Positions 15,737 through 38,408 of a stretch of DNA of 41,818 nt are shown one piece after another (within the stretch, counting starts at the first letter, position 1; each line of letters starts with the position of its first letter). Source of the stretch: Patescibacteria group bacterium (GTDB lineage Bacteria; Patescibacteriota; Minisyncoccia; Minisyncoccales; RBG-13-36-15); NCBI GenBank assembly GCA_022574775.1, contig JACZRI010000007.1, positions 1 through 41,818 on the forward strand, read 5' to 3'. The position numbers were made by a program, and so were the translations under genes. The notes below the pieces were generated by a model. It was not told the origin of the DNA and ran no database searches. It worked only from the letters and a program-made list of their open reading frames with translations.

Positions 15737-16360
15737 TTATTCTTTTGGTTTTTCTTCCTGTTTCTTTTCCTCTGTTTTTAGCTTCTTTTCTTCTGACGGT
15801 TTCTCTGCCTGTGGTTTTTCTTCTTTCGGAGACTCCCCTTCTTTTGACTTCTCTTTTCCTTCGGGTTTTTTAGTCTGCGGCTCTTCAAAAGGTTTTTCTT
15901 CTGTTTTCTCTCCTTTTGAAGGCTTTTCTTCCTTTGTTTTCTCTTTGCCCGCCGTAGCAGAGTCAGACTCAGTGGAGGCAGGTTCTTTTGACTTCTCTTC
16001 ATTCTGAATCTCTTTTACAGATTTCTCTGATACTGGTTTTTTCTCATTCTCGGGAATTTTTTCGGAAGGCTCTTTTGGCTTTTCTTCTTTTTTGGACTTT
16101 TTATGGAGAGGAATCTTTTTGCCCTCAATAATTTTTTCTGAAACTAATAAATTATAGACTGTGTCTGAAAGCTTAGCTCCAACAGACAGCCAATATTTAA
16201 TTCGTTCTCCTTTTAAGACTTTTTCTTTTGTTAAAGGATTATAAAAACCAACCTGTTCTACAAACCGGCCAGCTTTTGGCGGATTCCTTTTATCAGTAAC
16301 CACTATCTTAAAGGAAGGCTGATTTTTTTTACCTACTCTTAAAAAACGGATAACTAGCAT
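15737..16360 (-). CDS. rpsP: Ribosomal protein bS16 with ~115-aa Lys/Glu/Pro-rich C-terminal extension
   Basis: MLVIRFLRVGKKNQPSFKIVVTDKRNPPKAGRFVEQVGFYNP then KEEKPKEPSEK-type low complexity. Confidence 0.95.
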   Translation of the reverse strand: MLVIRFLRVGKKNQPSFKIVVTDKRNPPKAGRFVEQVGFYNPLTKEKVLKGERIKYWLSVGAKLSDTVYNLLVSEKIIEGKKIPLHKKSKKEEKPKEPSEKIPENEKKPVSEKSVKEIQNEEKSKEPASTESDSATAGKEKTKEEKPSKGEKTEEKPFEEPQTKKPEGKEKSKEGESPKEEKPQAEKPSEEKKLKTEEKKQEEKPKE

Positions 16361-17207: not shown

Positions 17208-17282
17208 TTAAGCCGAAGGCTCAAGGTTCTTATGAACTGTCCCTAAAACTCCATTTATGAACTTTCCGGAACTCTCACCGCC
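17208..17282 (-). pseudogene. Partial duplicate of the nusB 3' end
   Basis: Minus-strand frame reads [24 protein letters not shown]-stop; 16 residues identical to the NusB C-terminus. Confidence 0.85.
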
Positions 17283-17313
17283 GTCGCTTCGCTCCTTTGC
17301 GGCGGCTCATCTT

Positions 17314-17751
17314 TTAAGCCTTTTCCTCTGGTTCAGCTATTTCCTTATAGACCGTACCGAGTACGCCATTAATGAATTTCCCTGAAGACTCGCCGCCGAA
17401 AGTTTTTGCTAATTCAATTGCCTCATTAATTGCTACTTTTGGAGGAACTTCTTCTTTTTTCCCAAATAATAATTCATAAAGCCCGATTCTCAAGACATTG
17501 CGGTCAACGACATTAATTTGTCTAATTGGCCATTCCGGAGCTGCTTTTTCAATAATTTTATCAATCTGGGATAAATTTTCCACCACCCCATTTACCAGCT
17601 GCCAGACAAAAGTTTGATCTTCCAATCCTGGGCCGAATTCTTTTATATTCCTTTCAATAATCTTTTTAAGCTTTTCTGGTTTTTGACCGGAGAAATCCCA
17701 TTCGTATAAACTTTGGATTACAATTGAACGTGAAAGATGACGACTAGCCAC
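17314..17751 (-). CDS. nusB: Transcription antitermination factor NusB
   Basis: [21 protein letters not shown]...[32 protein letters not shown]. Confidence 0.96.
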
Positions 17752-17823
17752 TTTTGAAGCAAAAAGTATGAAACATGAAGAAACGAAAAAAACTTCGGTT
17801 CTTCAGACTTCAGACTTCAGACT

Positions 17824-18117
17824 TTACTTTTTTGAGAGTCCTTCCCATGTTAAAGATTTTTCTTTTTCCACTCCTTTTTCTTCTTTTTCTTTAGCCTTCA
17901 TCTCTTTTTCTCTCTTTTTCTTTTCTTTTCTATCCAATTTCTTTAAAACATCAACCACTTCTCTGCCCTTATAATAACCACAATTGAGGCAAGTCGTGTG
18001 CGGTAAAATCTCTTTGCTGCATTTTCCGCAAAGCGATAAAACGGGTGCCTTAAGAAAAAGATGCATTCTACGCTTATTCCTTCTCGATTTTGTATGCCTC
18101 TGTTTTGGTACAGCCAT
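17824..18117 (-). CDS. rpmF: Ribosomal protein bL32 with Lys/Glu-rich C-terminal extension
   Basis: MAVPKQRHTKSRRNKRRMHLFLKAPVLSLCGKCSKEILPHTTCLNCGYYKGREV. Confidence 0.95.
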   Translation of the reverse strand: MAVPKQRHTKSRRNKRRMHLFLKAPVLSLCGKCSKEILPHTTCLNCGYYKGREVVDVLKKLDRKEKKKREKEMKAKEKEEKGVEKEKSLTWEGLSKK

Positions 18118-18293
18118 GTTTAGACAGAAAATGTTAATTGAAATAAATTTCTCTTGAGTTAGTCGATAATACTAAATACAAAATGACAGAAAGGGGTCGG
18201 GAAAACTGGGTGTTTTCCCGTGTAGGACAACAGGGAACGAAGTGACCGCCAGAAACCGAGAGGTGTCTGGAGAACGAGCCCGGAGCGAGTGAT

Positions 18294-18325
18294 GATTTTG
18301 TATGCCTCTGCTTTGGTACTGCCAT
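18294..18325 (-). pseudogene. Partial duplicate of the rpmF 5' end
   Basis: ATGGCAGTACCAAAGCAGAGGCATACAAAATC encodes MAVPKQRHTKS, same as the rpmF start with two nt differences, then unrelated sequence. Confidence 0.85.
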
Positions 18326-37715: not shown

Positions 37716-38285
37716 TTAAAATTCTTTATTAATTCTACTTGCGCGGGGAGAATTTTGGCGAGAGTATTTCTGGCCTCTTTTTTTATGGTAAGGAATCTCG
37801 CATGGACTCGTTAAAGGTTCAAAAGAAATCGCGCAAATCCTCATTCCAGGATATAAAGCAACAGGAAGGATCCCCAAATTACCGAGTTCTATTACCGCAT
37901 TTCCTTTCCAGCCAGGGTCAAATCTGGCAGCGGTAATATGAATAATTATCCCTAATCTTGCTAAAGATGACCTTCCATCAATTCTAGCAGCTATATCCGA
38001 GGGAAGCTCAATTGACTCTTTAGTGGTGGCAATAATAAAATCCCCAGGCTGAACAATTAGAGGTTTTCCCGAGGGTAATTTAATTTCTGTCATTAGTTTC
38101 TCAATTGGAATTTTTGCCTTAAGATCAATGAAAGGAAATTCAACTCGCTTAAAGGTTTTAAAAACCTCTCCTAAATGCAAATCTAAAGAACAAGGACCTA
38201 ACTGTTTTTCAAAATCTGGCTTAGGGATAATTTTAATTTTGCCCTCCCTAATATATTTTTTAATATCTCGATCTGATAAAAGCAT
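37716..38285 (-). CDS. dcd: dCTP deaminase (Dcd family)
   Basis: LGPCSLDLHLGEVF, IDGRSSLARLGIIIHITAARFDPGWKGNAVIELGN. Confidence 0.93.
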   Translation of the reverse strand: MLLSDRDIKKYIREGKIKIIPKPDFEKQLGPCSLDLHLGEVFKTFKRVEFPFIDLKAKIPIEKLMTEIKLPSGKPLIVQPGDFIIATTKESIELPSDIAARIDGRSSLARLGIIIHITAARFDPGWKGNAVIELGNLGILPVALYPGMRICAISFEPLTSPCEIPYHKKRGQKYSRQNSPRASRINKEF

Positions 38286-38408
38286 AGTACATAAATAGCG
38301 AAACCTTTAGCCTCGTCTTCGCCGAAGCGAAGCGGGCGGCGGAAGCCTGTTTTCTGTATGGAAGAATAACCAATCCTCCCGACCCTTCCTTTACAAAAAT
38401 ATGGAAAA

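Follow-up and report, generated by a model that had tools for sequence, protein, structure and literature searches.

The window analysed here is the whole 41,818-nt stretch of contig JACZRI010000007.1 from a Patescibacteria group bacterium, whose genome (702,600 bases or 0.70 Mb, in 10 contigs) is referred to below as G000; G001, G002 and G003 are genomes of the same family. Between rnhB and rnc, the minus strand carries in order a 5' fragment of rpmF, a GC-rich insert, intact rpmF, intact nusB, a GC-rich palindrome and a 3' fragment of nusB (Table 1). This gene order with duplicated ends of rpmF and nusB is exactly that of the original prediction, as judged from the sequence, the ORFs and, for the nusB fragment, from tblastn, which found the fragment independently at 17220-17294; the junctions are also foldable, as had been supposed. 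The insert had been put at about 180 bp, and the distance from the rpmF fragment to the intact rpmF start is indeed about 176 bp, in which the repeat core with its tail takes up only 18187-18293 and the rest consists of X', an inverted arm described below, and spacer. The spacer between rpmF and nusB (17752-17825) is filled by a second, different dispersed repeat, an imperfect palindrome of the (A)AGTCTGAAGTCTGAAG...CTTCGTACTTC type that has about a dozen copies in the genome. Elsewhere in the window an ORF read as rpsP (ribosomal protein S16; 15737-16360) bears a long Lys/Glu-rich C-terminal extension, for a total of 207 aa.

Table 1. Features of the rnhB-rnc interval and a further repeat copy in the window.
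Feature	Position	Strand	Basis and remarks
Fragment of rpmF 5' end (displaced start, X fragment)	18294..18325	-	30/32 identical to intact rpmF start; MAVPKQRHTK; adjoins B end of the repeat
Copy 1, B-end tail joined to rpmF fragment	18279..18293	+	from sequence
Copy 1, repeat core	18187..18278	+	A end 18187, B end 18278; model R1 97 bits, cmsearch E 2.8e-24; related copies dispersed in genome
Copy 1, X'	18176..18184	+	reverse complement of rpmF codons 8-11, beside A end; ATACAAAAT/ATTTTGTAT, inverted-repeat match
Intact rpmF, 97 aa	17824..18117	-	ORF
Intact nusB, 145 aa (native body, last ~100 nt replaced)	17314..17751	-	ORF; window identities to relatives
Copy 2, X' (GCCGCCG)	17300..17306	-	complementary to nusB CGGCGG at break; sequence and folding
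Copy 2, putative core-deleted micro-element CAAAGGAGCGAAGCGA	17284..17299	-	CA.. start and ..GGAGCGAAGCGA/C end as in full copies
Fragment of nusB 3' end with stop codon (displaced native end)	17208..17283	-	with spacer to rnc, 131/146 to G001 and 127/145 to G002
Third, decayed repeat copy	38267..38392	-	3' end of gene read as rplK; R1 match 26 bits; X' CCATATTTTTGT vs CAAAAATATGG in gene end

The rpmF insert belongs to a dispersed repeat family. Used as a query against its own genome, it returned seven places, and a covariance model of the repeat core (R1, copies counted at E<=0.001) finds 12 copies in G000, 24 in G001, 8 in G003 and 1 in G002. Across the order, R1 matches occur in 64 of 196 genomes; their spread is patchy, and copy numbers reach 20 or more. 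When public genomes were scanned for the exact core pattern, the only records returned, where the title names a group, were of Patescibacteria/Parcubacteria type, and the core pattern gave no repeat in the viral contigs scanned. The core is non-coding and 75-150 nt in size, and a larger, coding version was not met among the copies examined. Nothing in Rfam 15 matched the core at the gathering score, the best hits being far below it and chance-like, and a search of the open-access literature gave no description of the repeat. At the nusB junction, only CAAAGGAGCGAAGCGA stands between X' and the fragment (CGGCGG..), and its bases are those with which full copies begin and end; by this reading the rpmF and nusB junctions would therefore belong to one repeat family, with the copy complete at rpmF and core-deleted at nusB, where the micro-copy is too short for scoring with R1. 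At the third copy of the window X' is present and the duplicated end is no longer recognisable.

The core has a covarying structure. In alignments of 89 distinct copies, which were fitted to the model and so somewhat favour the structure, 98.9% of the cells of 17 pairs are standard pairs and both sides have changed in 12 of the 17; none of 500 shuffles reached any of five covariation measures, and sliding the partners by one column lowers pairing to 52-62%. A second alignment set agrees except for the count of further pair types. On the A-to-B strand there are 24 G.U pairs vs 10 A.C mismatches, an excess that is mild evidence that this strand acts as RNA. Two copies (L031 and L049) have a circularly permuted core, in which the first hairpin has been opened and is now the closing stem. 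In both, the opening in hairpin 1 carries one and the same tail (T[AG]TGATCGT) as well as X/X'; the two copies sit at the 5' end of rpsT and in a galT-like gene.

Around the copies the A-to-B order is gene body (D), X, T, spacer, X', core, X, T and downstream sequence. X' repeats the beginning of X in reverse complement, mostly over 14-20 nt, and abuts the A end of the core; the B end, nearly always ..GCGA(C/T), lies directly against the second X in most duplication-positive copies. Base composition at the break shows no strong consensus on either side, the only constant part being the element's own ..GCGA(C/T) end. The flank duplications are not chance: at 36 of 115 copies the direct repeats in the flanks lie above the 99th percentile of controls with mismatched flanks. 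About two thirds of the copies have no detectable flank duplication, and these may be decayed or may have inserted without one. X' matches at 12 or more of 14 positions in 28 of the 34 duplication-positive copies, a level that shuffles reach in 0.4%, and with equal search space it fits the intact copy better in 21 cases, both equally in 12 and the fragment better in 1. At 30 of the 34 duplication-positive loci a long reading frame overlaps the duplicated part on the A side; the remaining four are three tRNA 3' ends (L090, L146 and L167) and a short rpmJ gene (L169). The A-side orientation is presumably the only one tolerated because the gene is rebuilt only in that orientation. Duplicated ends range in length from about 25 to 113 bp, and their sequences often differ. 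The same arrangement is seen at other, single gene ends of G000, those of fusA, secG and a glycosyltransferase. At the tRNA 3' end of L167, in G023, there is a tandem array of X-spacer-X'-core with a period of about 163 bp. At L170, a histidine kinase, the stump keeps a C-terminus different from that of the intact copy; the intact copy reads through the spacer and X', and would thus have gained a new C-terminus.

Comparison with relatives bears on which of the two ends is native. In each of G001, G002 and G003 the rpmF start and the nusB end occur just once, so the duplicated ends are not shared, in keeping with the original prediction. Taken together with the spacer that leads to rnc, the nusB fragment is close to G001 (about 91%) and to G002 (counts in Table 1), whereas the intact nusB end diverges from both, its best match being the G003 end (56/67). 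Against the nearest relative, G001, three windows of the nusB body (nt 1-330) give 83-85% identity, a level like that of rnc (81-86%), and the departure from G001 is confined to the last ~100 nt of intact nusB. Since the fragment with its spacer and the body are both native, the fragment is the displaced native end and the intact gene has received a new one, which contradicts the insertion of a block that is foreign throughout. The fragment had been taken for a foreign or older allele; foreign sequence is involved, but with the polarity reversed, the affinities of the two ends having come out the other way round. A native stump beside a non-native intact end does not derive from one local allele, and simple tandem duplication or slippage fails on this point at nusB. 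The fusA stumps of G000 and G001 are followed by the family's shared downstream sequence, giving the same polarity as at nusB; the rpmF fragment, at 32 nt, is too short to tell native from foreign. In G003 the fusA gene (L220) has a non-native-looking tail, then about 200 nt of unrelated sequence and then the family's native downstream, possibly an old event with the stump lost.

The differences between fragment and intact copies are largely silent. In the coding duplications 204 codons have changed, 126 of them synonymously, vs 37 expected from random change, and the stop codon of the gene still ends most stumps, suggesting that the two ends are two functional alleles and not a gene end with its decayed duplicate. 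At L164, L167, L168 and L174 the end copies are identical or nearly so over 62-113 bp, and local duplication or gene conversion must therefore also occur; at L168 and L174 the identity ends exactly at the stop codon.

Near-identical cores occur at unrelated sites, with differences at 3 of 98 nt both within one genome (L044/L048) and across families (L042/L112). Certain gene ends are hit repeatedly across genomes, namely those of fusA, rpsG, gapA, pgk, murC, a carboxy-terminal protease (ctp) and an extracellular solute-binding protein, and in gapA, fusA, murC and the protease the breaks of different genomes coincide to the codon or lie about one codon apart. These gene names come from our own reading of the translated ORFs and were not taken from database searches. 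Cores that share a site in different genomes are no closer than random pairs between those genomes, on which ground locus-specific element lineages spreading by homing were rejected. Repeated hits on the same genes and sites across families require a targeting rule. The simplest reading is that X is conserved between donor and recipient; X would have to be so in both, and the breaks would therefore fall at a conserved motif near the gene end.

It is proposed that the two junctions of the window probably go back to two independent insertions of one small non-coding mobile family, each of which supplied a gene end and displaced the native one. The insertion would split the gene at a point near its end, and the inserted unit would bring a working end, derived from a diverged relative and in frame with the gene body, which would let the gene survive, while the native end would be left as a stump beyond the core. 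The predicted layout after insertion is gene body, new end (X + T1), short spacer, X', core and displaced native end (X + T2). The unit X-T1-spacer-X'-core may come in whole at a break in X, with the short conserved X on the incoming foreign DNA serving as homology and natural transformation as a plausible source of that DNA, and a trans-acting protein may recognise the folded core together with the X'/X stem.

Local transposition with a long target-site duplication, in which a target of 25-113 bp is copied to both sides along with a short inverted copy and diverges later, would explain why the duplicated sequence adjoins the B end precisely and why the copies at L164, L167, L168 and L174 are identical or near-identical. 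Neutral stumps, however, should decay without codon bias, whereas the observed changes are mostly synonymous; the identity at L168 and L174 stops at the stop codon; and at nusB and fusA it is the stump with its downstream sequence that is native and not the intact end, so this explanation seems unlikely. Two independent insertions with long target duplications had been offered as an alternative in the original prediction, and of this the two insertions of one repeat are retained and the long target duplication is disfavoured by the nusB polarity.

A more exciting reading than that of a conserved X, which is the simplest, is a guide-directed cut. X' and the folded core would then act as a guide RNA (or single-stranded DNA) for a trans-acting nuclease or integrase that opens conserved motifs near gene ends, with a new repeat copy being installed together with the foreign end. 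The narrow length range of X', its position relative to the core, its better fit to the intact copy, the permuted cores of L031 and L049 and the recurrent conserved sites are all compatible with such a role but no proof of it, and we regard it as distinctly unlikely.

Strong covariation, the mild excess of G.U over A.C on the A-to-B strand and the many copies beside ribosomal and glycolytic genes would also suit a cis-regulatory RNA, with the core and X'/X hairpins kept as regulators in the 3'-UTR or between cistrons, as terminators or as processing signals, and with the duplications as by-products. This is quite improbable given that the orientation relative to transcription flips between 5'-end and 3'-end insertions, that the distribution is patchy and that cores at the same gene end are no closer across genomes than random pairs. 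The main claim of the original prediction, that a foreign rpmF-nusB block was inserted complete into a resident locus and now lies between its two ends, agrees with the layout of two stumps and with a native nusB stump; it is highly improbable in view of the native nusB body and of the single gene ends in G000 with the same arrangement. An assembly chimera of two co-occurring strains might be suspected in a draft of 10 contigs where the locus is known from the assembly alone, but is hardly credible when many genomes that were assembled independently show the same anatomy with a common repeat core at the junction.

The preferred reading, two insertions of a gene-end-supplying repeat, leads to the question of class. 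Like MITEs and REP/REPIN elements (PMC10969869, PMC3116915), the repeat is short, dispersed, structured, non-coding and multicopy. It differs from MITEs in lacking terminal inverted repeats common to the copies, the X'/X arms being locus-specific with the inverted arm copied from the target gene, and in lacking a short target duplication of fixed length, the ends running from about 25 to 113 bp. Nor is there a consistent Y1 transposase partner. Y1 is present in 12 of 18 many-copy genomes and in 7 of 18 without, a difference that cannot be called from this sample, and Y1_Tnp had no match in G001, G020, G023, G102, G103 and G116, which carry 7 to 24 copies; a REP/REPIN with a RAYT (Y1) partner thus fails in six high-copy genomes. 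A retroelement, group II intron or SINE-like origin was rejected on the basis of the Pfam model RVT_1, the only one used for this class, which is absent from nine high-copy, mostly complete genomes (G000, G001, G003, G006, G020, G023, G031, G103 and G116). An IS605-type TnpB with guide RNA was rejected likewise, PF07282 being over the cut-off in only 2 of 36 genomes. None of RVT_1, Y1 and TnpB tracks the repeat. Integrative elements and prophages that use the 3' ends of genes or tRNAs as integration sites rebuild those ends, as e14 does in icd, and resemble the repeat in carrying an alternative gene end with synonymous differences; they have one attB per integrase and encode that integrase, whereas the core family occupies dozens of unrelated sites and encodes nothing, its elements having no ORF, which speaks against a gene-end integrative element that carries its own tyrosine integrase. 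A known structured RNA family is rejected by the Rfam 15 search. Because each of these classes fails a tested feature, the repeat is not filed under MITE, REPIN, retroelement, TnpB or integrase-type elements, and we rate it as a kind of gene-end-replacing mobile element outside the named families.

Rickettsia palindromic elements are short palindromic repeats that are dispersed in a reduced genome and touch coding genes, all of which holds for the present repeat. They insert in frame inside genes, whereas the Patescibacteria repeats are located at the ends of genes, which they duplicate or replace. They are named in PMC10969869. The closest parallel that we found in the open-access literature is the mobile ORFs (mORFs) of fungal mitochondria, which carry foreign gene C-termini in atp6, atp9, cox2 and nad3 of Glomus sp. 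and in atp6 of Allomyces (PMC3630166). In both systems an insertion near the 3' end of a gene gives it a foreign in-frame end and displaces the native end downstream (PMC3630166), a likeness that extends here to the polarity at nusB and fusA and to the synonymous differences. At atp6 all differences between the native stump and its relative are synonymous, and mORF native ends group with the host's relatives, from which they differ synonymously (PMC3630166). The mORFs are 0.4-1 kb and encode LAGLIDADG or GIY-YIG endonucleases (PMC3630166), whereas the Patescibacteria repeat, at 75-150 nt, is too short for a homing endonuclease gene, is non-coding and RNA-like, has a target-specific inverted arm X' and is also found at 5' ends and tRNA 3' ends.

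The repeat would be a widespread, unannotated mobile element in a bacterial radiation of which little more than sequences is known. It would edit essential genes (fusA, gapA, pgk, ribosomal proteins and tRNAs) at their ends without destroying them. Dozens of conserved genes in many related genomes are affected by the same repeat family. It would explain duplicated gene-end fragments that resemble assembly errors or pseudogenes, would provide a folded RNA or DNA element, and would preserve a natural record of genes that distant lineages have exchanged over short homologies. Were X' to be a guide after all, this would be an RNA-guided gene-end replacement system and categorically new.
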